Shown: positions 9,140 through 22,921 of the stretch, piece by piece
Layout of the letters: the number at the start of each line of letters is the position of its first letter
How positions within the stretch are numbered: the stretch's first letter is position 1
Position numbers and translations under genes: made by a program
IMG/VR virus record: IMGVR_UViG_3300036804_000342
Coordinates: 1 to 22,921 of that record
Origin: a virus
DNA length: 22,921 bases
Strand: one strand, 5' to 3'
The notes under the pieces: generated by a model
The model's database searches: none
Seen by the model: only the letters and a program-made list of their open reading frames with translations
What the model was told of the DNA's origin: nothing

Positions 9140-10960
9140 ATGGTTCACCACTCCACCTCGTGGAAGACGGCCGCGGCGGAATCGCTTCTGGCGAAGTCGT
9201 GTTCGAAGATTCCAACCTTCGCCCGCTATTGCCTCGACATCCTCACCGGAAACGTTGCTGCCGGCAGGCTGGTTTTCCTCGCGATCGAGCGCACTCTCAA
9301 CGATCTCCAAAACTCACAGGGTCCAAAGGGATCGACGGAATTCTATTTTGACCAGGCCGCGGCCGCGCGCGCGATCGCGTTCTTCCAGAAGTTCCTTTTC
9401 CTGGCCGAGGGCGACAATGCCGGCCAGCCGTTCAAGCTGCAACCCTGGCAGCAGTTCATCATCGGATCGCTGTTCGGATGGAAATCCGCTGACGGCTTTC
9501 GTCGCTTCCGCACGGCTTACATCGAGATCGGGAAAGGCAACGGCAAATCGCCTGTGGCCGCCGGCATCGGCCTCTTCGGCCTCATCGCCGATAAAGAAAA
9601 TGCCGCCGAGATCTATTCCGCGGCCGTCGTGAAGGACCAGGCCAAGATTCTCTTCCGTGACGCTGAAAACATGCGCGACGCCTCGCCTTTTCTGAAGGCC
9701 AAGATCGCCAGACACGTCAACAACCTGTCGGTCACTTCGACGGCGTCCTTCTTCCGCCCGATCTCGTCCGAGAAGCGAGGCCTGGATGGAAAGCGGCCGC
9801 ACATTGTCCTGGTCGACGAGCTGCACGAGCACCCCAGCCCGGTCGTCGTCGACAAGATGCGTGCCGGCACCAAGGGCCGGCGCCAGGCGCTGATCTTTGA
9901 GATCACGAATTCAGGTTACGACCGCGAGACCGTGTGCTTCTACCATCACGACTACTCGCGCCAGCTGCTCGAGGGAACCCTTCAAAACAATTCCTGGTTC
10001 GCATACGTCTGCCAGCTCGATGCCTGTGAAGACTGCCGCAAGCAGGGACGCGAGCAGCCGGCTTGCGACAATTGCGACAGCTGGCTCGACGAAGAGGCCT
10101 GGATCAAAGCGAACCCGAACCTGGGCGTTTCCATCCAGCTGAAATATCTGCGCGAGCAGGTCACCGAAGCCATGGCGATGCCGGCGAAAGAGAACATCGT
10201 CAAGCGACTCAATTTCTGCCTGTGGACGCAATCCGAAACACGGGCGATCTCTGCGGACCAGTGGCGCTTGTGCGCCGGCACCGGCGGCGAGGATCCTGTA
10301 GCCTGGCGCCGGCAGAAACTCGAAAGCGTCAAGGGCACGGTGTGGTATGGAGCGCTGGACCTGGCTTCGACCACCGATATCGCGGCCGCTGCATTCTTTA
10401 TCCCCAAACAGCCGGCGGTTCCAAAACCGGTTCTGATCCCGTTCTTCTATGCGCCCGCGGAAGCGGTCCAGCAGAAAGTCATGAAGGACAGGATCCCGTT
10501 CGATCTGTGGGTGAAGCAGGGTTTCATCTTTGAGACCCCGGGCCAGGTGATCGATTACGACTTCATTCGCGAGCATCTGAAAGGGCTGCGCGCCGACTAC
10601 GACCTCCGCGAGATCGCTTTCGATCCGTGGAATGCGCAGCAACTTGTCACCCAGCTCGAGAACGATGAATTCACGATGGTCAAGCATCAGCAGACCATCG
10701 GCCAGCTGACGGACCCCACCAAGCACTTTCTGAAAATGATCACCGGCGCCGAGTTTGAGCACGGCAACAACCCCGTGCTCGCCTGGATGGCCGACAACCT
10801 GGTCGTCAAGTCGGATGCTTCAGGGAATCTGCGGCCGCTGAAACCGGGCAATCCGAACTCACCCAAGAAAATCGATGGCATCGTGGCCACGATCATGGCC
10901 GACGGTCGCATGACGGCCAACCCTGAAATCGACGAGAAGCCCGAGGTGTTCTTCATTTGA
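9140..10960 (+). CDS. terL: Terminase large subunit (Terminase_1 family)
   Basis: The 606-residue product is the DNA-packaging motor and nuclease. The ATPase part has a Walker A variant, GKGNGKS at 131-137, and a Walker B, VLVDELHEH with D226 and E227. The nuclease part has acidic residues in the expected order: GALDLASTTD (D407), AFDP (D495) and KKIDGIVA (D579). Length is typical for the family. A Cys-rich stretch near 290-315 (CQLDACEDCRKQG, CDNC) could bind zinc between the two domains. The start has no clear binding site and probably relies on coupling to the small subunit. Four bases of overlap join it to the portal gene. Confidence 0.95.
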   Translation: MVHHSTSWKTAAAESLLAKSCSKIPTFARYCLDILTGNVAAGRLVFLAIERTLNDLQNSQGPKGSTEFYFDQAAAARAIAFFQKFLFLAEGDNAGQPFKLQPWQQFIIGSLFGWKSADGFRRFRTAYIEIGKGNGKSPVAAGIGLFGLIADKENAAEIYSAAVVKDQAKILFRDAENMRDASPFLKAKIARHVNNLSVTSTASFFRPISSEKRGLDGKRPHIVLVDELHEHPSPVVVDKMRAGTKGRRQALIFEITNSGYDRETVCFYHHDYSRQLLEGTLQNNSWFAYVCQLDACEDCRKQGREQPACDNCDSWLDEEAWIKANPNLGVSIQLKYLREQVTEAMAMPAKENIVKRLNFCLWTQSETRAISADQWRLCAGTGGEDPVAWRRQKLESVKGTVWYGALDLASTTDIAAAAFFIPKQPAVPKPVLIPFFYAPAEAVQQKVMKDRIPFDLWVKQGFIFETPGQVIDYDFIREHLKGLRADYDLREIAFDPWNAQQLVTQLENDEFTMVKHQQTIGQLTDPTKHFLKMITGAEFEHGNNPVLAWMADNLVVKSDASGNLRPLKPGNPNSPKKIDGIVATIMADGRMTANPEIDEKPEVFFI

Positions 10961-12615
10961 GCCGCTTCAGCCGAACGCGATCGCTGATCTCCGCAGCCTG
11001 GACCTCGTTTCGTGCAGATCTTGGCATGGGAACTCCTTCTCCCGATTCTGATTTCTGGTATCACCGCCCGGGCTTTCGCTCGGCAGCGGGAACTTATGTT
11101 TCTCCCGAAACCGCGATGCGCCTGTCGGCCGTATTCGCGTGCGTGCGCGTGATCTCAGAAACCGTCGGCTCCTTACCTCTGGTGATCTATCGCCGGCGCA
11201 AAGACGGCGGCAAAGAGCGCGCCGACAATCATCCTCTCGCCGACGTTTTCAGAAAACCCAACCTATGGCAGACCGGTTTCGAATTCTGGGAGATGATGCA
11301 GGCGCACCTCGAGCTTCGCGGCAATGCCTTCGCGGAAATTGTGACCGGCAACGGTCGCGCCATCGATGAACTGATCCCACTGCATCCCGACAGGGTTCGT
11401 GTTTTCCGCCTCCCAAACGGGAAGCTGCGTTATGACGTCACCTCCTACTTCGATGGGACGATCCGACGCCTTGCACAGGAAGAGATGCTTCACCTGCGAG
11501 GGCTCTCCTCGGACGGGATCATCGGGATCAGCACCATCACCGCAGCTTCTGAAGTCGTCGGCGCCGGCCTGGCGCAGCAGGAATATGGCTCGCGATTCTT
11601 CTCCAACAATGCGAAGCCGGGTGTGGCCCTGATTTCGGCTTCGAAACTCGATAAAGAGGCGAAGGAAAATCTGCAGGAGACGTTCTCGCAAGGCTTCAGC
11701 GGCGCGAACGCATTCAAAACCGCGGTCCTGCCTCCGGGCATGGATATCAAGGTGCTTGGACTGACGAACAAGGATTCCCAGCTGATCGAAGCGCGCCAGG
11801 CCACCCGTACCGACATCGCCAGCATGTTTCGCGTGCAGCCGCACAAGATCGGAGATCTCACGCGGGGAACGTTCTCAAACATTGAGCAGCAAAACATCGA
11901 ATTCGCCACCGATTCGATCCGGCCGCGCGTGGTTCGCCTGGAACGAAGGATCAATCTCGACCTGCTCGACGCACTCGGGATCGGCGAGGCCGGTGATTTC
12001 TTCGCCGACTTCGGCATGGATGCGCTGTTCCGCGGCGACATGAAGAGCCGCTATGACGCCTACAACACAGCGCTTCAATTCTGGCTGACCGTCAACGAAG
12101 TGCGGGCCATGGAAAACCTGAACCCGATCGATGGCGGAGACGTGATCATCCGCCCCGTCAATATGTCCAAGGTGGAGGACAGCGGCGATACCAATCAGGA
12201 GACCGACACCGAAGAGCAGAACCAGGATTCAGCCTCACCGGATTCGGATCCATCAGACGATGAGGAGCAGGCGAAAGCCGGCGATCTCCATCTGCGGGCC
12301 CTGGTCATGAGCGCCGCCGGCCGGGTGGTCAGGCGCGAGGTTAAAACCTTACGCAAGCTCTCGGCGCAGAAACTGGACGAGCCTTCTCTTCGCGCAGAAC
12401 TCGATGCCTTCTATGGCGGCCTCACCGGAATCATTGCCGAAAATCTGGTGATGCCGGCGGCCGCGGCGAAGACCTATGTCGACCGGCATTCGAAACTGAT
12501 CACCAGCGCGAAGTCGGAGCGGCTGGATGAGGTGATCGAGCTGATTGAGGAAGAGAGCCCGGCGATGCTGGCCGAGATGGCTCTCGAGTCGCGAAAAAGT
12601 TCTGCAAAGCGGTGA
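10957..12615 (+). CDS. HK97-family portal protein with extended acidic C-terminus
   Basis: The 552-residue product forms the dodecameric ring through which DNA enters the head. Family signatures include LSAVFACVRVISETVGSLP, HPLADVFRKPN, LRGNAFAEIV and FRVQPHKIGDL. After about residue 405 comes an acidic linker (about 405-440), then a helical domain with a repeated alternation of charges. The start is TTG overlapping the terminase stop (TTGA), with GAGG about nine bases upstream. The C-terminal helical extension is longer than in HK97 itself. Confidence 0.92.
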   Translation: MSRFSRTRSLISAAWTSFRADLGMGTPSPDSDFWYHRPGFRSAAGTYVSPETAMRLSAVFACVRVISETVGSLPLVIYRRRKDGGKERADNHPLADVFRKPNLWQTGFEFWEMMQAHLELRGNAFAEIVTGNGRAIDELIPLHPDRVRVFRLPNGKLRYDVTSYFDGTIRRLAQEEMLHLRGLSSDGIIGISTITAASEVVGAGLAQQEYGSRFFSNNAKPGVALISASKLDKEAKENLQETFSQGFSGANAFKTAVLPPGMDIKVLGLTNKDSQLIEARQATRTDIASMFRVQPHKIGDLTRGTFSNIEQQNIEFATDSIRPRVVRLERRINLDLLDALGIGEAGDFFADFGMDALFRGDMKSRYDAYNTALQFWLTVNEVRAMENLNPIDGGDVIIRPVNMSKVEDSGDTNQETDTEEQNQDSASPDSDPSDDEEQAKAGDLHLRALVMSAAGRVVRREVKTLRKLSAQKLDEPSLRAELDAFYGGLTGIIAENLVMPAAAAKTYVDRHSKLITSAKSERLDEVIELIEEESPAMLAEMALESRKSSAKR

Positions 12616-12623
12616 TTACCCAT

Positions 12624-13748
12624 ATGAAATACGCAAACATCGTCGCCGAGTTTTACAGCCGAGTATGGGCCATCCGTCCCGAGAAGCTCTATCTCATCGA
12701 TCAGCTGATCCGGCTCCGAGCCAGCGGTCAGCGCTTCACTGAGAAAGAAATCCGCCAGCGCATCGGTGCCGACGCATTCGCCGGGCCTCGTTCCCAGGGC
12801 GGATCCCCGGGCACGGTTGCCCTGATCCCGATCGTGGGCACAATTTCTCACCGCATGAACATGATGGGAAATATCTCGGGAGGCGGAGGCACCTCGATCG
12901 AGAAGCTGACTTCGCAATTTCGCGGCGCCCTCGCGGATCCGAACGTGAAGGCGATCGTCTTCGACGTCGATTCACCAGGTGGAAGCGTCGACGGTGTCGC
13001 CGAGCTCGCGAGCGAGATCTATGACGGCCGCAAGCAAAAGCCGATTGTCGCCGTGGCAAATGCCCAGGCGGCGAGCGCGGCCTACTGGCTGGCCTCGGCT
13101 GCGAAAGAACTGGTCGTCACTCCTTCAGGCCAGGTCGGCTCGATCGGCGTGTTCGCGGCGCATGAAGATCTGTCGAAGGCGCTCGAAACCGAGGGTGTGA
13201 AGGTCTCCCTGGTCAGCGCCGGAAAATACAAAGTTGAGGGCAATCCGTATGAGGCGCTGAGCGACGAAGCCCGCGCAGCGCTGCAGGACAAAGTCGATCA
13301 GTATTACGGAATGTTCACCAGGGGCGTCGCGCAGAATCGTGGGACCTCGCAGGCAAAAGTGAGAGAGGGATTTGGCCAGGGCCGCATGGTCATGGCGCAG
13401 GATGCCGTGAAACAGAATATGGCCGACCGCGTGGCCACGCTCGATGAAGTGCTGGCGAAGTATGGAGTCAGCAGCGCCTCGCCGGCGAGGACCGCCGCCG
13501 CGTCGACAGGAACGCCGATCGCCGCTTCTGATGGGATGGACGAAGAAGAGTGCAACTGCTCATGCACTTCGTGCCAGGCCTGCAAGAACATGACCGACGA
13601 TAGCGATCCGGACGACGACGGAGACTGCAACTGTTCGTGTGAAGCCTGCCAGGCCTGCGAAAACAAAACGCCGGCCGCGAAGGCCGAGGCGGTGAGCGGG
13701 ATCCATTCAGGAATCGCACGCCGGCGCCGGGAGATGCAGCTTCACTAA
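12624..13748 (+). CDS. S49 (SppA-like) head maturation protease with duplicated Cys cluster
   Basis: The 374-residue product starts MKYANIVAEFYSRVWAIRPE, typical of phage S49 proteases. I prefer ATG 12624 over GTG 12612. The serine protease core carries the catalytic Ser at 151 (AAS in NAQAASAAYW) and Lys at 203 (GKYKVEGNP), 52 residues apart as in bacterial SppA. It should cleave capsid proteins during head maturation. The C-terminal tail has two copies of a cysteine cluster, C-x-C-x-C-x2-C-x2-C, at 310-320 and 335-345, separated by an acidic linker. That is unusual and looks like a metal-binding add-on. A terminator follows its stop. Confidence 0.92.
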   Translation: MKYANIVAEFYSRVWAIRPEKLYLIDQLIRLRASGQRFTEKEIRQRIGADAFAGPRSQGGSPGTVALIPIVGTISHRMNMMGNISGGGGTSIEKLTSQFRGALADPNVKAIVFDVDSPGGSVDGVAELASEIYDGRKQKPIVAVANAQAASAAYWLASAAKELVVTPSGQVGSIGVFAAHEDLSKALETEGVKVSLVSAGKYKVEGNPYEALSDEARAALQDKVDQYYGMFTRGVAQNRGTSQAKVREGFGQGRMVMAQDAVKQNMADRVATLDEVLAKYGVSSASPARTAAASTGTPIAASDGMDEEECNCSCTSCQACKNMTDDSDPDDDGDCNCSCEACQACENKTPAAKAEAVSGIHSGIARRRREMQLH

Positions 13749-13773
13749 CGCGCCATCCCAAAAACGAGATTTC

Positions 13774-13798
13774 AAAGCCCGCCGATGCGGGCTTTTTT
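13774..13798 (+). terminator. Intrinsic terminator between protease and capsid genes
   Basis: AAAGCCCGC (13774-13782), loop CGAT, GCGGGCTTT (13787-13795), then TTT. A compact stem with a T-run, 26 bases after the protease stop. It should reduce or end transcription before the capsid gene. Confidence 0.85.
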
Positions 13799-13875
13799 AA
13801 TGCCCGAAACCCGCAATCCTTCGATTGAGGACCTCGGGAGCAAGCAAGACAAATTCAACCGAAGGAGCCATCTCC

Positions 13876-15255
13876 GTGAAAAGTAACATTCACAACATTC
13901 GCCAACGTAAGAGCGAGCTGAGCGCAAAAAACCGCGTTCTGCTCGACAAGGCTGCCCAAGAGTCTCGCGACCTCAATGAGGCCGAGGGCGCGCAGTTCGA
14001 CGACAACGTAAAAGCCCTGGTCAAAGTCGAGGAGCAGTTAGTGCGTGAAGAGCGCCAGCTCGAACTCGAACGCAGCATGGGCACGATCGAGGACGAAAAC
14101 ACCACCGCCGCAGATCGCGCCGGCGCACCGACCGCTCCGAAAAAGGGCTTCTCGAGCCTGGGAGAGATGCTGGTTGCCGTCGCCGCCTCGGCTCGCACCG
14201 ATGGACGCCACACCGACTCGAGACTGATGGCCGCCGCGGCCGCCGGTATGAGCGAGGCTGTTCCTTCCGATGGCGGGTTCCTGGTGCAGAAGGATTTCGC
14301 TCCCGAGATCCTGCAGCGCACCTACGCCACGGGCCAGATCCTCAAACGTTGCAAGCGGGTTCCTATCAGCTCAAACGCCAATGGCCTGAAGTTGAACGCC
14401 ATCGACGAAGACAGCCGTGCGGACGGCTCGCGGTTTGGTGGAGTTCTGGCCTACTGGATCAACGAAGCCGATGCATTGACCGGCAGCAAGCCGAAGTTCC
14501 GGCGCATCGAGTTGAACCTCAACAAGCTGATTGGCCTGGTCTATGCCACCGACGAACTGCTTCAGGACGCAGCGGCTCTCGAAGCATGGATCATGCAAAA
14601 CCTGCCCTCGGAACTCTCCTTCCGCGTGGAAGATGCCATCTTCAACGGAAGCGGCGTGGGCCAACCCCTGGGCGTGCTCAATGCCGGCGCAACTTTGTCG
14701 ATCGCGAAAGATTCGGGCGACAGCGGCGCGACCATCAGCAGCACTGACGTCGTGAACATGTGGGCACGTTTCTGGGCTCCGGGCCTCGAAAACTCCATCT
14801 CACAAATCGGGATGGAAACCCTGGCCGCGCCGGGCGGGAACGGCGGACAGATGCCGGGCGCCGCCTGGTTCGTCGACCAAAGCGTTCTTCCGAAGCTCTT
14901 CGGCATGACGCTGGGCTCTGGAACCGCGGTGATCCTGCTCTATCATCCGCCGGGATATTACGGGCTGCCGGGTCCTTACGGTCAGATGCTGGGCCTGCCC
15001 GTCATCCCCGTCGAGCACTGCGCGGTGCTCGGAACTCCGGGTGACGTGATCCTGGCCGATCTGAGCCAGTACGTGCTGATCGACAAGGGCGCGCCTCAAG
15101 CCGCTTCTTCGATCCACGTGAAGTTCCTCAGCGATGAGATGACTTTCAGGTTTGTCTACCGCACCGACGGTCAGCCGACCTGGAAGAAGCCTTTGACCCC
15201 GAAGAACGGCGGCAACACAATGGCGCCCTTCATCACCTTGCAGACCAGGTCCTAA
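13876..15255 (+). CDS. Major capsid protein, HK97 fold, with N-terminal delta domain
   Basis: The 459-residue product has a helical, charged N-terminus (about 1-75, with RQRKSELSAKNRVLLDKAA) that fits the scaffolding-like delta domain, removed by the head protease. The HK97 core then follows: SLGEMLVAVA, GMSEAVPSDGGFLVQKDFA, and FRRIELNLNKLIGLVYATDE, with VEDAIFNGSGVGQPLGVLNA as a strong signature. I chose the GTG at 13876 because GAAGGAG at 13861-13867 lies eight bases before it; an upstream in-frame start at 13825 lacks a site. It assembles into the icosahedral head. Its own promoter is likely because a terminator lies directly upstream. Confidence 0.93.
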   Translation: MKSNIHNIRQRKSELSAKNRVLLDKAAQESRDLNEAEGAQFDDNVKALVKVEEQLVREERQLELERSMGTIEDENTTAADRAGAPTAPKKGFSSLGEMLVAVAASARTDGRHTDSRLMAAAAAGMSEAVPSDGGFLVQKDFAPEILQRTYATGQILKRCKRVPISSNANGLKLNAIDEDSRADGSRFGGVLAYWINEADALTGSKPKFRRIELNLNKLIGLVYATDELLQDAAALEAWIMQNLPSELSFRVEDAIFNGSGVGQPLGVLNAGATLSIAKDSGDSGATISSTDVVNMWARFWAPGLENSISQIGMETLAAPGGNGGQMPGAAWFVDQSVLPKLFGMTLGSGTAVILLYHPPGYYGLPGPYGQMLGLPVIPVEHCAVLGTPGDVILADLSQYVLIDKGAPQAASSIHVKFLSDEMTFRFVYRTDGQPTWKKPLTPKNGGNTMAPFITLQTRS

Positions 15256-15314
15256 GGAAAAGCTCCGGACCGGGATCGACAAAAAAACACTTCTCAGAAA
15301 CGAGGATCAAATCC

Positions 15315-15818
15315 ATGAACGGTTTCAATGTCGCCGAAGCTGGGCACGTCGTGAACATCCTTCCGCCGGTGGATATCACCGGCGGGAAGACCGCCCAGGC
15401 TTTCAACATGAAGCGCCACAAACACGCTTCGATCATCATCCAGATCGGAGTTTCCGCCGCTGCCTTCACCAAAATCCTGCTGAATCTTTGCAGTGATGCG
15501 AGCGGCACCGGTCCGACCGCCATCCCGTTCTTTCTGTACAAGCAGGAGACGGCCGGCGCGAGCAACGACGTTCTTTCCACTCGCACCGCGGTGACCTCGG
15601 CCGGTTACACCCCCGCGGCTACAGACGGGATCTTCTATGTCATCGAAATCGACGCCAACGAGCTCGAAGCTTCCGGCGTCGGCATCGGTGAATGCGGAGT
15701 CGATGCCTATCTGCAGCTTCAGCTCACTAACACCGCCAACAGCGTGATTGCCAGCGCGGTCGCGGTCCTTACGGGAGCGAGAGACGCGGAAGTAGCGAGT
15801 CCGACCGTCTGCACCTAA
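15315..15818 (+). CDS. Post-capsid phage structural protein, possible decoration protein
   Basis: The 167-residue product is beta-rich and resembles a family I recall from the position directly after the capsid gene: HASIIIQIGVSAAAFTKIL, then AIPFFLYKQET, then RTAVTSAGYT, then FYVIEIDANEL. No enzymatic motif, no signal peptide. It may sit on the capsid surface or at the head vertex. The start follows GAGG at ten bases. The gap before it is 59 bases. Confidence 0.7.
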   Translation: MNGFNVAEAGHVVNILPPVDITGGKTAQAFNMKRHKHASIIIQIGVSAAAFTKILLNLCSDASGTGPTAIPFFLYKQETAGASNDVLSTRTAVTSAGYTPAATDGIFYVIEIDANELEASGVGIGECGVDAYLQLQLTNTANSVIASAVAVLTGARDAEVASPTVCT

Positions 15819-15824
15819 ATTCGT

Positions 15825-15867
15825 TCGGGCCCGATGGAACTTCTTAATCGGGCCCGAGCGCATTTTC
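15825..15867 (+). terminator. Terminator-like inverted repeat
   Basis: TCGGGCCCGAT (15825-15835) and ATCGGGCCCGA (15847-15857) form a perfect 11-bp stem with an 11-base loop. The T-run (TTTT at 15863-15866) starts five bases after the stem, weaker than the classic form. Each arm is also self-complementary (CGGGCCCG), so a cruciform or a dimer-binding site is an alternative. Confidence 0.5.
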
Positions 15868-15883
15868 TGAAAGAGACGAAAAA

Positions 15884-16099
15884 ATGTTCATTCGAATGAC
15901 GGTGGGACGAGACGCCGGCAAGGAGAAGGAGTTTCACTACGAGCAGGCTCGCGATCTGATCGCGAAGGGCCATGCCGTGAAAGTTGATTTCGACGCACAG
16001 GACGCGCAGCCTCAGCTGTTGACGCCGCCGAGAGCTGCATCTTCGACCGAAGCGCCGCGACCGCTGATCCGCAAGGCCGGATCGAAGCGTCGCCATTAA
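15884..16099 (+). CDS. Small conserved phage protein, 71 residues
   Basis: The product starts MFIRMTVGRDAGKEKEFHYE and continues QARDLIAKGHAVKVD. This matches a small family usually found between capsid and connector genes, of unknown function. The basic C-terminus (IRKAGSKRRH) may bind nucleic acid or a protein. The binding site AGAG lies eight bases upstream. Confidence 0.7.
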   Translation: MFIRMTVGRDAGKEKEFHYEQARDLIAKGHAVKVDFDAQDAQPQLLTPPRAASSTEAPRPLIRKAGSKRRH

Positions 16100-16132
16100 C
16101 CATGGTGCATCTTAGAACCAGCGAGGTGAGTC

Positions 16133-16372
16133 ATGACCGTTTTCAACCGCACCTACCAGGTCCGCTCGCGGCGGGGTTCGATGATCAGCGTGCCCGACAT
16201 GATCGAGGAGCTCAATGAGCGTGCCGAAGAGCGGCAGAGTTTTCGGCGCACGGCGGAACGAGTTCCGCCTGGCAAAAAAATGACTAAATCAAGCGCAAAG
16301 AATCGAGCGCTTCAAGGCGTCCAGCTCGAACTGTTCCCATTGTTCGATTTAATTCCCGAGGCCAGTCAGTGA
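16133..16372 (+). CDS. Unknown 79-residue protein between capsid and connector genes
   Basis: The product is highly charged, starting MTVFNRTYQVRSRRGSM, with a helical middle (MIEELNERAEERQSFRRTAE). GAGGTGAG lies just before the start, and the GTGA overlap with the next gene suggests coupling. No membrane span or metal motif. No family recognised. Confidence 0.55.
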   Translation: MTVFNRTYQVRSRRGSMISVPDMIEELNERAEERQSFRRTAERVPPGKKMTKSSAKNRALQGVQLELFPLFDLIPEASQ

Positions 16373-17580
16373 GCTCAATCGTTCGCACGGCCGTGATCGG
16401 TGCAGAGCCGGTGTCGCTCGCCGACATGAAGAATTTTCTTAAAGTTCCGGCCGGCGTCACCACTGACGATGCGCTCATCAAGAGTCTGATCAAGGCCGCG
16501 CGGATCCAGGCCGAGATCATTGCGGAATCCGCCCTGGTGCGTTCGACCTTCGTTCAATACATGGATCACTTCCCATACTGGCGGGTGCGGGAGCGCGGTT
16601 ACTACGTGGGCCAGGTCGGCCACGCCTCCGAGCACCACCACATGCATCACGGAGAAATCAAGATCAAGCAACCGCCGCTGATCTCGGTCGAGAGTCTGGT
16701 CTACATCGGAACCGATGGGCTGCCTCACACCCTGAACCCGGGCACGGATTTCATTGTCGATGGAGCCAAGAAGCCGGGGCGCATTCGCCCGATCCCCTAT
16801 ACGGTCTGGCCGCTTAGCCTGCGCGTTCCAAATGCGATCGCGATCTCTTTTACCGCCGGCTATGCGCCGGACGGGGAGGGCGTCGCTGCCGGCGAGGCCG
16901 CGATCGCCGAGCCGGAGACTTCGACGCCGGCGCTCAATATGGGATGGCAGCCCACCATCACAATTCCTCAATACGGCTTCTTCGTCGATGAAAGCGGGAA
17001 TGTCTGGATCGAGACGGCCAGCCCCAGCGGAGTGACGGGCACGAGTCGTCCCGACTTCGAGGCGCAGGCCATCGGCGGGACAATTGCCACCGACGGCAGT
17101 GCGGCATGGCTGAACGTGGGATCGCTTCGCGGCTTCTGGACGCCGGCGACTGAATACAGCGGGCAAAATGCCTGGGTCGTTCTCGATACGAACAGCAACC
17201 TGCAGCTGCTCATCGTCGCTTCGCTCGTCAGCCAGACTTCGCCGCCGGCTGGAATTCAGGGATCACAAACCCCCGCCTGGGCCTCGAGCACGGGATTGAT
17301 CACGCCCGACAATGGCATCGATGCCTGGCGCTGCCTCGGAAACTATCGCGCCCTGGGCAACTCCGGAGCCTCGACGCCGAATTCCCCCGAACAGCAGGCG
17401 GCTTACACCATCGACTGGACGCTTCCGGAGACCGTCCCGATCGCCGTCATGCAGCTGGTCTCGCACTGGTATTTCAACCGGGAAGTGGTTGCCCCGGGAT
17501 CGGTGTCGGAGATCCCGCTGCACGTCATGAGCCTGCTCGCAACCGTCAGTGTTCCGGACTATGCGCCCACGCCTGACTGA
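16369..17580 (+). CDS. gp6-like head-tail connector with large internal insertion
   Basis: The 403-residue product has the connector start (SLADMKNFLKVP, AARIQAEIIAESALVRSTFV), a strand part (PPLISVESLVYIGTDG) and the turn SFTAGYAPDG (about 158-168). The expected C-terminal helices (PIAVMQLVSHWYFNREVV) appear only after residue 353, ending PLHVMSLLATVSVP. The intervening stretch, about 170-350, is a beta-rich insertion with two related motifs, AWLNVGS and AWRCLGN, each at the end of a Gly/Thr-rich run. Ordinary connectors of this type are far shorter. The protein seals the portal and joins the tail; the insertion may project outward. Start GTG overlaps the previous stop. Confidence 0.75.
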   Translation: MSSIVRTAVIGAEPVSLADMKNFLKVPAGVTTDDALIKSLIKAARIQAEIIAESALVRSTFVQYMDHFPYWRVRERGYYVGQVGHASEHHHMHHGEIKIKQPPLISVESLVYIGTDGLPHTLNPGTDFIVDGAKKPGRIRPIPYTVWPLSLRVPNAIAISFTAGYAPDGEGVAAGEAAIAEPETSTPALNMGWQPTITIPQYGFFVDESGNVWIETASPSGVTGTSRPDFEAQAIGGTIATDGSAAWLNVGSLRGFWTPATEYSGQNAWVVLDTNSNLQLLIVASLVSQTSPPAGIQGSQTPAWASSTGLITPDNGIDAWRCLGNYRALGNSGASTPNSPEQQAAYTIDWTLPETVPIAVMQLVSHWYFNREVVAPGSVSEIPLHVMSLLATVSVPDYAPTPD

Positions 17581-17631
17581 TTTTTTCCCAAAAGAGTTTT
17601 CGGCCACAAAACGCACCAAGGAGGAAACACC

Positions 17632-18066
17632 ATGCTGAAAAACAGACTGCAGAAAGTCACCGCGGCGATCGCGATGCTCATCGTGCTCTCAACGTTTGCC
17701 CTGGCAGTTCAGACTCCACTTACGACTCAGGTCCTCAAGCAGAACAACTACGCGGTCGTCGCCGGCGATCTCACGCTCACTTTCACCGCCATGGATGCGT
17801 CGAACGGAAACTCGTTCTTCGCCACCGGCCGCGAAGTGTTGATCGTGCAGAATAGCGATGCCTCTCCGCACACCTTCACTGTCACCAGCGTCGCCGACAG
17901 CCTCGGGCGAACCGATGCTACGCTGACGAGCTATAGCGTCGCAGCCAATGGCTTCGCGATTATCCAGTTCAGATCGCTTCTCGGCTGGATCCAGCCTGGC
18001 GGCCAGACAGTCAACATGACGACGTCGTCTGCTCTGCTGAAAATCGCGGTGGTTCAGTACAACTAA
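17632..18066 (+). CDS. Exported small beta-rich protein in the head-tail module
   Basis: The 144-residue product has a clear Sec signal peptide: MLKNRLQK, a hydrophobic core (AAIAMLIVLSTFALA), and a probable cut after residue 25 (ALA). The mature part matches in style a beta-sandwich family I recall in phage clusters, with LTLTFTAMDASNGNSFFATG, REVLIVQNSD and GWIQPGGQTVN. Such proteins are possible head or tail decorations, but the signal peptide would send it to the periplasm. The binding site AAGGAGGA lies six bases before the ATG, the best in the window. It overlaps the next gene by one base (TAATG). Confidence 0.65.
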   Translation: MLKNRLQKVTAAIAMLIVLSTFALAVQTPLTTQVLKQNNYAVVAGDLTLTFTAMDASNGNSFFATGREVLIVQNSDASPHTFTVTSVADSLGRTDATLTSYSVAANGFAIIQFRSLLGWIQPGGQTVNMTTSSALLKIAVVQYN

Positions 18067-18446
18067 TGCCCCTGCGTCGACTGAGCTTCCTGGTGCCTCC
18101 CCAGGGAGCCTACACACCCGTCGGCGCGATGGATCGGGAAGTCTCGATTCTCGCGCCCTCGGGCCGAAATTCCGATGGATCCACTCCACCGCTGAGTCCC
18201 TTTGTCCCGAAGACCTGGGCTGCGATCCGCCTGCTGCAGGGCGACGAGCTCTATAAGGCGCAGCAGATCGCTCAGGAGGTTACTCACCTGGTGACGATCG
18301 CCTGGCAGCCGGGAATCACCGAGCAGATGCAGGTGAGCTATCAGGACGAGGGCAACGCGCGGCTGTTTCAGATTAAGGCCGTGCAGGATCCCGACGAACG
18401 CAAGGTCGAGCTGCGGATCCTCGCCATGGAGATCCAGAACTTATGA
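18066..18446 (+). CDS. Head-tail joining (head closure) protein, Phage_H_T_join family
   Basis: The 126-residue product has the family pattern DREVSILAP, then TWAAIRLLQGDELYKAQQ, VTHLVTIAWQPGI, MQVSYQD, ARLFQIKAVQDPDERKVELR and EIQNL. This matches the PF05521-type joining protein that docks onto the connector and carries the tail. Its position after the connector supports the call. Starts by TAATG overlap and ends by ATGA overlap, so it is co-translated with both neighbours. Confidence 0.82.
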   Translation: MPLRRLSFLVPPQGAYTPVGAMDREVSILAPSGRNSDGSTPPLSPFVPKTWAAIRLLQGDELYKAQQIAQEVTHLVTIAWQPGITEQMQVSYQDEGNARLFQIKAVQDPDERKVELRILAMEIQNL

Positions 18447-18829
18447 AAATCACACACGCCAAGGTCTCCAGCATCACCACACCGCCGATTAATCCGGCGC
18501 TCGTGGGCGGACCCGATTGGAACGCGGCGCACCTCGCAGGATTTCCCTCGACAGCTTTCGCCGGCAGCGCGTCCGTGCCGGCTTCGGTCGATCTCGCGGA
18601 AGGCACCGGCGGATCTTCAGGAATCACCCTCACCTGGGTGGGAGCTGGCCTCGCGAATGGCCAGATCGTTGTCGCCATAAAAGTCGATTCCGGCGCCGGC
18701 GCGGTCACGCTCGCCGAAGCCGCCGGTGCTCTTTTCAACGGTGATCCGAACTACGTTCTTTCAAACCAGTGGCAGTTCGTCTGGCTGCAGTGGAACGGCA
18801 CGCGCTTCAACGTGATCGGAGGCAACTAG
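18443..18829 (+). CDS. Fibre-like beta-rich protein, 128 residues
   Basis: The product begins MKITHAKVSSITTPPINPAL and then has GGPDWNAAHLAGFP, a DWN-x2-H motif common near the N-terminus of phage tail-fibre or tail-spike proteins. The rest is Gly-, Ala- and Thr-rich beta sequence, ending QFVWLQWNGTRFNVIGGN. It lacks a signal peptide, in contrast with its neighbours. It could be a minor fibre or chaperone-like subunit. ATGA overlap with the joining protein. Confidence 0.5.
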   Translation: MKITHAKVSSITTPPINPALVGGPDWNAAHLAGFPSTAFAGSASVPASVDLAEGTGGSSGITLTWVGAGLANGQIVVAIKVDSGAGAVTLAEAAGALFNGDPNYVLSNQWQFVWLQWNGTRFNVIGGN

Positions 18830-18836
18830 GGATCCC

Positions 18837-20684
18837 ATGAAACTCTTCAAACGGTTACTTCAGATCTTCGCGCTGCTGATCCTGCCGGCGATCGCTTACG
18901 CCCAGGGAGGCGGATCGACCACGATTCGATACGGCGCCGCGTGGCCAACGACCTCGCATCAGTGGACGATTTTCGTTTACACGCCGGGGAACACCGCGTA
19001 CCTGTGCACCACCAATCCCTGCAACGGGCCCACTGGCTATACCCCGCTCGGGAGCTCGGGCGCCGCGCCTGGTTCGCCCGGCCAGATCATCCTCAACATC
19101 GCCGGGGCTTTTGGTGCGAATTCGAACGTCTTCGTCGATGGATCGAGCTTTGTAAATGCTCTGGGCTATGTGGGAAACGGCTCGGGAGCTTACAGCCTCT
19201 CGGGAGCATACAACCTGGTGACCGATTGCTCGCCTTCGACGGGTACTCAGTCTTCGATCTGTTTCGGACTGTTGGGAAAAATCGAAGGATCGGAAGCCGG
19301 AGACGGCCCCTTTGAGTTCGGCCGCTTCGGGCAGATCACCGGCGCCTGGCTGAAACTCGATTCGAATAATTGCCTTGCTCTCGGGGCCGGCGGCACCGTC
19401 GCGCCCTGCGCGCAGAACGCCGGCGTAATGGCGATCATCAATCCCGCGAACCCCACCACACCGACCAAGATCAACATCATGAAGAACTGGACTTCGGGAA
19501 CGGCGTGGGAAGCGCTCGGGTGTGGCTGGGATGTGACCGATAGCGTCTACATATGTGGATCGGATCACGGCTCCTTGAGCGGCAGCAATTATCCAACGTT
19601 CTTCACTGCGGGCGGTTTTACGAATCCATTCTGGGGCATGGTCACCCAGGGCAACTGGGTAGCTCACAGCAAAAATCAGAATCCCGATATCGGTTCTGTG
19701 ACCGTCGCGCAGCAGCCGCGGATCATCTGGATCAGTGGCTTCACTGTCAACCAAGGTGCCTATGCTCAGCCAGTCCTCAACAACAATTCGACTGGCACCG
19801 AGATCGGACTACTCGCGAAGCCTTCGGCGTCGGCTTCTCCGATCACCGCGCAAATTTCTACGACGGCTGATATCACCGGTCTTCTGGGGCCGGTGGTCGG
19901 TGAGACCAATGGCGTCGTCACCGGCACCATCATCGTTGATGGCGGCACTGCGTATGTCTCTCCGGTATGCATGGTGGCCCAGCCTTCGGGGAACACGGGG
20001 GTTCAGGCGACCTGCACGGCTACACAATCGGGAGGCGTGATCAATGCGGTCACGATCACCAACACCGTATCGAACAGCGGCTACCAGTTCGCGATGACGC
20101 CCGCCGGCGCGAGCATCATCACCATCACCGACTCAGCGGGAACCGGTGCTTTGGTGCTGCCTGTAATTACAGCACTCACCGGCAGCGCGATCATCGCCCA
20201 GGATGGTTCCACGGCGATGGGATTCTTCGATGGTTCGGTCACCATCAAGGATTGGGTCGGGCCTTCGGTCACCGCGGCCGGCAAGTTCACCGATCTCGGC
20301 ATCTCCTGTGTGAACCCGCGGCCGCAGAACGTCGAGACCTTCGGATGCCTGCAGCAGACGGCAAGCGGCACCGGCTTCTACTCGTTCACCGTCTCAATGG
20401 GCCAGCCGATCGTGAAGCAACAGGCTTTTGCTAGTCCGCTCGGAGGCAGTTGTCCGACGACTGCGAGCATCGGAGCGTTCTGCACCAGCGCGAATCTGAC
20501 CTGGACCCAGGCCTTTCCCGATAACAACTACACCGTGGTCTGCATGCTCAGCAATCCCACGGGACATCCGAACCTTCAGACCTACACCAAGCTGGCGAGC
20601 GGCACCGGTATCACCTTGACGATCGCGGCCGAAACCGCGGCGGCCGCCAACGCGGGCGCCGACTGTATCGCGAGTCACAACTAA
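18837..20684 (+). CDS. Exported fibre-like protein, 615 residues
   Basis: The product has a signal peptide (MKLFKRLLQ, hydrophobic IFALLILPAIAYA, probable cut after residue 22 before QGGG). The long mature part is Gly/Ser/Thr/Asn-rich and beta-structured, with runs of pattern such as TGTIIVDGGTAYVSP and AVTITNTVSNSGYQ, and a C-terminal part (TWTQAFPDNNYTVVCMLSN, then IAAETAAAANAGADCI) in the style of phage fibre C-terminal domains. No catalytic motif recognised. It probably binds host-surface or extracellular polymers. The start follows AGGGA at five bases. A secreted fibre-like protein in a phage is unusual. Confidence 0.6.
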   Translation: MKLFKRLLQIFALLILPAIAYAQGGGSTTIRYGAAWPTTSHQWTIFVYTPGNTAYLCTTNPCNGPTGYTPLGSSGAAPGSPGQIILNIAGAFGANSNVFVDGSSFVNALGYVGNGSGAYSLSGAYNLVTDCSPSTGTQSSICFGLLGKIEGSEAGDGPFEFGRFGQITGAWLKLDSNNCLALGAGGTVAPCAQNAGVMAIINPANPTTPTKINIMKNWTSGTAWEALGCGWDVTDSVYICGSDHGSLSGSNYPTFFTAGGFTNPFWGMVTQGNWVAHSKNQNPDIGSVTVAQQPRIIWISGFTVNQGAYAQPVLNNNSTGTEIGLLAKPSASASPITAQISTTADITGLLGPVVGETNGVVTGTIIVDGGTAYVSPVCMVAQPSGNTGVQATCTATQSGGVINAVTITNTVSNSGYQFAMTPAGASIITITDSAGTGALVLPVITALTGSAIIAQDGSTAMGFFDGSVTIKDWVGPSVTAAGKFTDLGISCVNPRPQNVETFGCLQQTASGTGFYSFTVSMGQPIVKQQAFASPLGGSCPTTASIGAFCTSANLTWTQAFPDNNYTVVCMLSNPTGHPNLQTYTKLASGTGITLTIAAETAAAANAGADCIASHN

Positions 20685-20728
20685 GCTCAAAAATGCTCAG
20701 AAATGCCCCAGGACGTTCCGAAGGGTAT

Positions 20729-22921
20729 ATGAGGCCCATCGGAAAGCGGAATCACGCCTACGCCCCTCCCAGCTTCGGGAATTGGCATCTCACGGCGTTT
20801 TTTTCGCGACAGATGCTGTGGATGACAGCTTTTGTTGTCATCAGCTGCGCCCTCGCCGGCTTCGCCCAGGTCTCAAATGAAACCGGGACCTTCGTCAAGC
20901 AGGGCAGCTTCACTTCTCCGCAAGTCGCGGCTCCTTCGCCGCCGATCTCTCCCACAGCGTTTAGCATCCACGTGCATAACCCGGCGATGACCTTGCCCAC
21001 GATTCCAATCGGCGGGCTCCGCATCTGGGGAACCGGCACCGCGCAGTGGAACACGATCGAAGGTGGGACGCTCATGAGCCCGACCTTTGACTTCTCGGGA
21101 ATCGGAGACGAGACCGCCGGAACCGGATGGATCGGGTACGCCAAGCAGTTCAACGTCGATCTGATCTTCACCTTCGGGCAGGTGCCTCGTTTCGGTTCGG
21201 TGCTTTCTGTCGACTCGCCCGCCAATTTTCCGATCGCTTTTCCCGTGGCAAACAACGGAATCTCATGGAGCGGGAGTGTCGCAACCGTCACCACGCTGCA
21301 GCGCCAGAATTCCACGGCCGGCGACAGCGTCACCATCGCCGGCGCGACGGGATGCCCCTTCACGATCAATTCAACTTTCACGCTCACTCTGGCGAACAAC
21401 CCTACCGATTATCCCTGGACCTACAGCTTCAACGTGACCGGAGCGACCGGATCCGGCAACTGCGGAGGATCCGCGGCCACGATCACCAACAATGCGCAAA
21501 CTGCGACCAGGTGCAAGGGCACCGGCGCACCTCCGAACGGTCAGGGCGGAGGCTGTTATTCGCCGTATGACGTTGCCGTCGATGGCACCGGCCCCGACGC
21601 ATTTCTGCAGGCCTTTGAAACCGCGTTCATCACTTACCTGGTCGCTCACGATCCCATGCACCGCATGAAGTACTGGGAGATGTGGAACGAGCCCCAGGGC
21701 CCGGGATATTTCAACGGCTCGATCAAGCAGATGGCGCGCATGCAGAGGGACACATATAACCTGATCGCCGCCTCGGCGCGTCCCGACATCATCCTTACCT
21801 CGCCGGCACCGTCGGGAGGCCTGACTTCGCCCGCGGCTTATCTCGGCCTGTTCGCCGCCGACTCTTCGAACCCGCTGCAATATGCCAAGCAGATCGACTT
21901 TCATTCCTACAATTTCGCGCTCACTGGGTCGCAGGCGCCGAATCCCGGGGACGTGCTCACCATCGCCGCCAACGTGCGGGTCGCGATCGCTCCCTACATC
22001 GCCGGCAGGAATTTGCCTTTCGTGGTTTCAGAAGGCAGCTGGGGTGAAGGCACCTGGTCTCTTTCGGGACCCCAGGGGCCGAATACCGGTACCACCGCGA
22101 TCCTGAATCATGCCGACTGGGTTGCGCTCTGGGAGACCTATCACGTCTGCGCCGGAATCTCGCGTCAGTACTGGTTCGCATGGGATCAGAACAACGGATC
22201 CGGACTGATCACGGGAACGACGATGCCGATCGGCACCGAGCCGTCGGCGACCGGCTGGGCCGTCGCACATGACTGGCTCGCGAATGCGAACCTGGTGCAG
22301 ACCTGCCGGCAGGATCTCGCACGCAACTGGACGGTTCAGGTCGCGCGCGCCGGCGGCTATCTCGGCACCATGCTGTGGAACCTGAATCTCACGACCATCG
22401 GCAGCTATACGATCCCGGCGGGGGTCTATACCCAATATCGCGACATTAGCGGCAATGTGCATTTGATCTCGCCGACGCAGACTTCGGTTCCCGTGCAGGC
22501 GGATCCGATTTTCCTCGAGACCGGTCCTCCCCCTTTCAAGATCACCAGTCCGATCATGATGCCCTCGGGTTTGCAGGGCGCCTTCTACATGAGCGCGCTC
22601 TCATCGAGCGGCGGATCGGGCGCGAGCACTTACAGCGAACTTACTCTGCCTTCGCCGCTCGGAGCAGCTGGTCTGTCGCTCGACCCGGCGACCGGCGACA
22701 TTACCGGCACGCCATCGACCTCGGGAAACCTGAATACAACGGTGTGGGCTCTCGACGCCGCGGGATCGAGTTACACCCAGAACATCGTGATCAACGTCGC
22801 CGCGTCTTCATCGGGCAACCTCGACGATCTCTATTGCCCGAGTGGGGATTCATCCTGCAATTTCGGAGGCACCGATGGGCCGGCACAATTGCCGATCACC
22901 GGCATGTCGACCGATCCCGCG
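20729..22921 (+). CDS. Exported clan-A glycoside hydrolase with tail-fibre-like insert and Ig-like domain (3' end cut)
   Basis: The frame is open from ATG 20729 to the window edge (731 codons). It has a hydrophobic segment at about 30-47 ending AGFA before Gln, a Sec signal peptide or anchor. A beta/alpha-barrel glycosidase follows: IHVHNP near 80, GGLRIWG near 95, DLIFTFGQ near 150, YWEMWNEP with the acid/base Glu at 321, DFHSYNF with H392, and FVVSEGSWGE with the nucleophile Glu probably at 435. Residues about 170-275 interrupt the barrel with a beta segment (SVATVTTLQR, AGDSVTIAGATGC) typical of phage fibres. An Ig-like domain lies at about 605-690 (LSLDPATGDITGTPSTSG). The layout fits GH39/GH5-like enzymes; the substrate is unknown. 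It would cut polysaccharide outside the host cell. Confidence 0.72.
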   Translation, partial: MRPIGKRNHAYAPPSFGNWHLTAFFSRQMLWMTAFVVISCALAGFAQVSNETGTFVKQGSFTSPQVAAPSPPISPTAFSIHVHNPAMTLPTIPIGGLRIWGTGTAQWNTIEGGTLMSPTFDFSGIGDETAGTGWIGYAKQFNVDLIFTFGQVPRFGSVLSVDSPANFPIAFPVANNGISWSGSVATVTTLQRQNSTAGDSVTIAGATGCPFTINSTFTLTLANNPTDYPWTYSFNVTGATGSGNCGGSAATITNNAQTATRCKGTGAPPNGQGGGCYSPYDVAVDGTGPDAFLQAFETAFITYLVAHDPMHRMKYWEMWNEPQGPGYFNGSIKQMARMQRDTYNLIAASARPDIILTSPAPSGGLTSPAAYLGLFAADSSNPLQYAKQIDFHSYNFALTGSQAPNPGDVLTIAANVRVAIAPYIAGRNLPFVVSEGSWGEGTWSLSGPQGPNTGTTAILNHADWVALWETYHVCAGISRQYWFAWDQNNGSGLITGTTMPIGTEPSATGWAVAHDWLANANLVQTCRQDLARNWTVQVARAGGYLGTMLWNLNLTTIGSYTIPAGVYTQYRDISGNVHLISPTQTSVPVQADPIFLETGPPPFKITSPIMMPSGLQGAFYMSALSSSGGSGASTYSELTLPSPLGAAGLSLDPATGDITGTPSTSGNLNTTVWALDAAGSSYTQNIVINVAASSSGNLDDLYCPSGDSSCNFGGTDGPAQLPITGMSTDPA

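Follow-up and report, generated by a model that had tools for sequence, protein, structure and literature searches.

The stretch of DNA analysed here, referred to as the window, is the entire virus record IMGVR_UViG_3300036804_000342 (22,921 bases), which is probably a fragment of a virus genome. At its 3' end it carries a glycosidase open reading frame (ORF) on the + strand (20693..22921), which extends for 743 codons from the ATG at 20693 and is still open where the contig stops, its 3' end being missing. The candidate starts are 20693, 20729, which was used in a first-pass annotation of this DNA, and 20813. From the sequence and a structural model we conclude that the encoded protein is a clan-A glycosidase resembling glycoside hydrolase family 39 (GH39), of the PslG/xylosidase type and near to PslG. 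The assignment is based on the score of a family profile, on the alignment of the two catalytic Glu residues and on an AlphaFold2 (AF2) model of a barrel which is closest to PslG. By a modest preference over all other explanations, the protein would be a late-expressed, secreted, retaining GH39 glycosidase which cuts the exopolysaccharide of the host.

Assignment to family GH39

It is important to note that the family cannot be assigned from one sequence. Searches with the window protein alone in Pfam, NCBIfam and PHROGs, and by phmmer on the PDB, returned no glycosidase and only an immunoglobulin-like (Ig-like) domain. There was also no match by tblastn with this protein in phages and plasmids, nor in a first genome-contig scan with a two-sequence alignment of the window protein and its sibling. 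The sibling protein is carried by one viral contig and is 57% identical to the window protein; the profile of these two sequences has GH39 as its top match (E 0.004). Scanning viral contigs for the pattern YWExWNEP gave insert-free phage relatives (L006, L007, L011, L008/L130 and L013), one of which, L007, lies above the Pfam cut-offs for cellulase/GH5 and GH10 and slightly below that for GH39. A genome-contig scan gave 302 relatives, 80 of which were kept.

The family profile was made from 30 relatives, with the window protein and the sibling left out. Against this profile the window protein scores 193 bits, in two blocks parted by an insert at residues 159-269. The controls, 200 shuffles of the window protein and the other ORFs of the window, reach at most 3.7 bits, and chance is therefore excluded. 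In the PDB the same profile matches the GH39 beta-xylosidases with E 6.6e-27 and PslG with 3.4e-18. The first-pass annotation had proposed a phage-encoded clan-A glycosidase, and this agrees with the profile score, with the fold search described below and with the phage head module located upstream. It had also suggested that the family be found by a hidden Markov model search, which gave GH39 of the PslG/xylosidase type by way of the family profile. The absence of a glycosidase profile match, which it had regarded as decisive against its own proposal, was indeed seen with Pfam on the single sequence, but was overturned by the family profile and the fold search.

Catalytic residues and fold

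The GH39-like barrel consists of block 1 (residues 64-158, 20918..21202, + strand), delimited by the family profile without the window protein and by the AF2 model, and of block 2 with a C-terminal beta sub-domain (residues 270-597, 21536..22519, + strand), delimited by the family profile. The predicted acid/base E321 (21689..21691, + strand) is located in the fragment WNEP of strand 4, and the predicted nucleophile E435 (22031..22033, + strand) in the fragment VSEG of strand 7. This corresponds to the GH39 arrangement of an acid/base Glu after Asn on strand 4 and a nucleophile Glu on strand 7. Six residues, R98, E317, W319, E321, H392 and E435, are invariant in the alignment of 32 sequences, window and sibling included. 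The two Glu residues are 114 positions apart in the window protein and 86-150 across the 32 homologues. They align with E160 and E278 of XynB1, whose catalytic roles in GH39 are established; E160 reads Ala (WNAP) in the PDB row of the mutant 2bfg, where it is aligned to WNEP of the window protein. The Glu pair, its spacing and its strands had already been named in the first-pass annotation and are retained here. The alignment with solved GH39 enzymes suggests that E321 and E435 face each other.

The barrel is confident in the AF2 model, with a predicted local distance difference test (pLDDT) value around 90 in most strands. When this barrel was compared with the PDB by Foldseek, ranks 1-3 were all PslG of Pseudomonas aeruginosa (PDB codes 4zn2, 5bx9 and 9g17), with E 1.2e-11 and a template modelling score of 0.70-0.73 by target, and the matches included GH39, GH30 and GH51. 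The model and these matches agree with the (beta/alpha)8 barrel of clan GH-A that is characteristic of GH39. However, the identity to PslG in the fold alignment is only 11-12%, and the root-mean-square deviation is 5-6 Å over the whole alignment.

Added domains and predicted export signal

An insert of about 110 residues (159-269; 21203..21535, + strand) is localized in the loop after strand 3, and among the 32 homologues it is found only in this phage lineage. The stretch between its two flanking Pro residues has 126-131 residues in the window protein and the sibling, as against 6-39 in the remaining 30 homologues. The insert is beta-rich in sequence and of low confidence in the AF2 model. 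The first-pass annotation had placed an inserted domain of the fibre type at about 170-275. The inserted domain is real, but the fibre type was not borne out: the insert alone has no significant match in 50,697 cultured-phage records (best E 8).

The barrel of the sibling protein has a second loop insert after WNTIE (P0002 residues ~83-162; L001:6007-6500), which matches virion-type beta repeats (phrog_19630, 1.5e-11, and also phrog_708). Another phage member of the family, P0004 (L130:609-4706), has 1366 residues and is composed of a signal peptide, a long N-terminal region, a GH39-like barrel and InlB-type repeats; a long extra stretch between its His and nucleophile segments is lectin-like by eye. 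Loop inserts recur among phage members of the GH39-like family (window, sibling and P0004).

The barrel is followed by an Ig-like domain (22601..22798, + strand), which is He_PIG of Pfam (PF05345, E 7e-7, 30 bits with a cut-off of 24) and upholds the Ig-like tail described earlier. At the other end of the chain, a crude hydropathy/cleavage script found a probable Sec signal peptide core at residues 29-47 of the window protein, P0001 (MLWMTAFVVISCALAGFA, followed by Q; 20813..20869, + strand). The ATG at 20813 directly begins this core. By the same script and reading, signal peptides are present in the window protein, the sibling, L006, L007, L011 and L130. By this crude prediction the window protein is exported, in accordance with the secretion assumed in the first-pass annotation.

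Full-length protein and gene block

The sibling protein (P0002) is full length, with 1695 residues, and consists of the GH39 part, the insert, the Ig-like domain, a middle region which is propeller-like by eye, and an end of about 470 residues. This C-terminal end is 30% identical to L133, a chromosomal homologue in an Acidobacteriota genome, which scores 37.2 for GH71 (cut-off 34) and is adjoined by a glycosyltransferase-like ORF. The C-terminal part of the sibling itself gave no GH71 match, and its AF2 model has a pLDDT of 36. The similarity is suggestive only that this end may be GH71-like. The complete gene of the window probably encodes about 1700 residues, with the middle and GH71-like regions located beyond the Ig-like domain. 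When the connector protein and the C-terminal part of the sibling were used as queries on viral contigs, the sibling contig alone was returned.

In the sibling contig (G402) the head closure gene ends at 15428 and the tail terminator gene starts at 24703; the tail terminator and major tail protein genes have both been identified in it. The block of about 9.3 kb between these borders is made up of four genes, for proteins of 128, ~616-645, 1695 and 629 residues. In the sibling the glycosidase gene thus has viral genes on either side, and in the window upstream. In L127, a related prophage from Acidobacteriota, nothing but a stop codon parts the head-completion gene from the tail-completion gene. 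The four-gene block was either gained in the lineage to which the window and the sibling belong or lost from the other lineage, a direction which one empty site does not fix.

In the sibling block, three genes out of four start with signal peptides, as judged by the crude script or by eye, and the window counterparts of the first two of these do likewise. No signal peptides passing a stricter setting of the script were found in the two Acidobacteriota prophages compared. A soil phage contig, L136, shares a stretch of the 629-residue protein and has four signal-peptide genes in the same general region. By the script, structural-type genes with Sec signal peptides are found in the head-tail runs of soil phages at 17632-20684 of the window, 4160-12994 of L001 and 5118-9789 of L136.

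Probable host and chromosomal relatives

The portal protein is 43% identical to relatives in Acidobacteriota genomes, and the head genes are collinear with those of the Acidobacteriota prophages. The host is probably a soil bacterium of the Acidobacteriota. The portal gene at L006:3701-6583 has an intein-like insert (Hint and LAGLIDADG matches, with the portal match split), which is absent from the close relative L011.

In the tree of the family, the phage members are not grouped together. L006 and L011 join an Acidobacteriota sequence (support 100/99), P0004 joins Acidobacteriaceae sequences (100/100), and the window protein and its sibling share a long branch whose placement near Acidobacteriota is weakly supported. 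The tree supports the view that phages acquired this GH39-like family at least two times from donors of the Acidobacteriota type. At several loci the chromosomal relatives adjoin glycosyltransferases, WecG, Wzy_C, Poly_export and polysaccharide deacetylase, which prevail among 54 selected neighbours. The gene of the window is itself located in a phage head-tail run and not in an exopolysaccharide gene cluster. A tight GH39-like set recurs in many Bradyrhizobium species (L021-L037), with a glycosyltransferase-like gene near L021.

Comparison with known enzymes

PslG, the best fold match, is an enzyme that Pseudomonas directs at the slime of its own biofilm. It belongs to an exopolysaccharide cluster and acts as a retaining endo-beta-glucosidase (PMC11912335), and it disperses biofilm (PMC7237758). 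Its catalytic residues E165 and E276 are 111 positions apart, close to the 114 of the window protein; PMC9075953 gives these residues together with the localisation of PslG. As with PslG, several chromosomal relatives of the window protein accompany exopolysaccharide genes. The GH39 beta-xylosidases, XynB1 among them (PDB codes 1w91/2bs9), give the strongest sequence-profile match, with the catalytic Glu residues aligned one to one. However, they act on xylosides and are without added domains of the kind seen in the window protein.

GH39 also occurs in a cultured phage. The "beta-1,4 xylanase" of Caulobacter phage Cr30 (AGS80957), mentioned as a xylanase in PMC5380687, is 34.5% identical to L007 and reaches 41.5 bits for GH39 in Pfam, with a cut-off of 26. 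However, this protein has 394 residues, no signal peptide and no insert, and its gene is located outside the head-tail run. Other environmental viruses likewise encode glycosidases, but these belong to other families, such as the soil viral GH5 endomannanase (PMC6786970) and chitosanase (PMC9485262), both of proven activity, or are only listed as auxiliary metabolic genes (AMGs), such as GH39 in trench viruses (PMC8725595). Phage glycosidases are already known. What is new here is the block, predicted to be exported, at the junction of head and tail genes, together with the loop insert and the multi-domain form of very large size; in the literature searched, no description was found of such a block at this neck-gene site, of such a form or of such an insert.

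Probable function

In the mechanism that we propose, the gene would be read late, together with the head-tail genes, and the enzyme would leave the host cell by the Sec pathway. Around the time of lysis it would cut beta-linked exopolysaccharide or capsule produced by the host and by clonal cells nearby, and would loosen the matrix that encloses the infected cell. This could allow the progeny to spread and to gain access to neighbouring cells. The signal peptide, the late gene run and the context of PslG and the chromosomal relatives make such a secreted, exopolysaccharide-cutting role the most likely one. The first-pass annotation had left the choice between an AMG and a depolymerase unsettled. 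Export and the exopolysaccharide-cluster context of the chromosomal relatives favour a secreted exopolysaccharide enzyme over both plant-polymer feeding and a classic virion depolymerase.

Several points weigh against this explanation. The position among virion genes and the virion-type repeats of the sibling would also fit a part of the virion. The signal-peptide calls come from a crude script and reading by eye, the host is only inferred, and the selection of the 54 neighbours favoured genes that look as if they serve exopolysaccharide synthesis, without a control set. In addition, the single-sequence searches were silent on any glycosidase, and the enzymatic activity is a prediction from sequence and model.

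The main rival, which we consider unlikely, is a virion-borne depolymerase that would belong to an appendage of the neck or tail and remove capsule or exopolysaccharide before the phage adsorbs. This would explain why a large, multi-domain protein is encoded between the head-closure gene and, in the sibling, the tail-terminator gene, in one run with structural-type proteins, and why the second insert of the sibling barrel resembles phage virion repeats (phrog_19630, phrog_708). The relative from Cr30 is also listed among depolymerases (PMC5380687). However, the protein and other phage relatives have N-terminal signal peptides, whereas virion assembly takes place in the cytoplasm. The virion-associated depolymerases of phages usually have a beta-helical tailspike fold, while the AF2 model and Foldseek indicate a TIM barrel. 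In addition, the family member L007 is located outside a structural run and adjoins a DNA polymerase.

A wider reading, which we regard as rather doubtful, is that some phages of soil bacteria, probably Acidobacteriota, have an exported block within the virion-gene run, and that several Sec-signalled structural-type proteins are sent out before lysis. The glycosidase of about 1700 residues, with a possible second catalytic barrel, would be one of them. Once outside the cytoplasm, these proteins may work on the matrix or become attached to cells or virions.

Less probable again is an AMG whose product breaks down polysaccharide from plants or soil to nourish the host, either in the course of infection or in the lysogenic state. 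Soil viral glycosidases of proven activity do exist, as cited above, GH39 includes xylosidases, and the sibling phage encodes a tyrosine integrase, so that lysogenic expression is possible. However, the gene forms part of the late structural run and no clear separate promoter was found for it, the block has no transporter or utilisation gene, and several chromosomal relatives belong to exopolysaccharide clusters. An inactive scaffold, in which the glycosidase fold serves sugar binding only, is very improbable: the long branch of the window and the sibling, and a Lys at one mostly conserved position where most relatives have Asp, could be taken in its favour, but both catalytic Glu residues and R98, E317, W319 and H392 are retained in the two proteins.

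Glycosidases of soil viruses are usually read as auxiliary genes which help the host to eat plant carbon. For the secreted exopolysaccharide enzyme preferred here, the family, the position in the late run, the signal peptide and the genes that surround the chromosomal relatives point to slime of the host's own kind as the target. If this is true, a part of the soil AMG glycosidase list would serve the spread of phage through biofilm and not carbon feeding. Proteins encoded in a virion-gene run yet built for export provide a testable case.

Other genes of the window

The genes are located on the + strand throughout, in a nearly gapless run from the head module through the genes for proteins of 128 and 615 residues to the glycosidase gene. 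A promoter scan found none above expectation in the gene run, and the glycosidase gene showed no noteworthy separate promoter or terminator. The head module of a tailed phage, head-completion protein included, occupies 9140-18446. Its terminase large subunit, portal, S49 protease, capsid and connector genes (9140..17580) were identified with Pfam and PHROGs, and the head-completion/head-closure protein Hc1 (18066..18446; PF05521, phrog_25) forms the left border of the block. The base composition is even across the window; together with the full head module upstream, this rules out a piece of bacterial chromosome.

The small protein of 128 residues (18443..18829) is fibre-like in sequence by eye and has no signal peptide; family searches with it gave no match, and a sibling gene of 128 residues is found at the same place. 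The next gene (18837..20684) encodes a structural-type protein of 615 residues, exported by crude prediction, which has no family match in Pfam or PHROGs and is 50% identical to the sibling protein at the same place. It precedes the glycosidase gene directly, in agreement with the fibre-like neighbour reported in the first-pass annotation. A structural-type head/tail protein of 144 residues (17632..18066; phrog_16194) has a signal-peptide-like N-terminus by the crude script, which is absent from its 44%-identical sibling counterpart (L001 2965-3366). These genes are all on the + strand. Upstream of the packaging genes, the window contains a DUF6745 gene (629-2086; PF20530, 5.9e-33) with no match in PHROGs.
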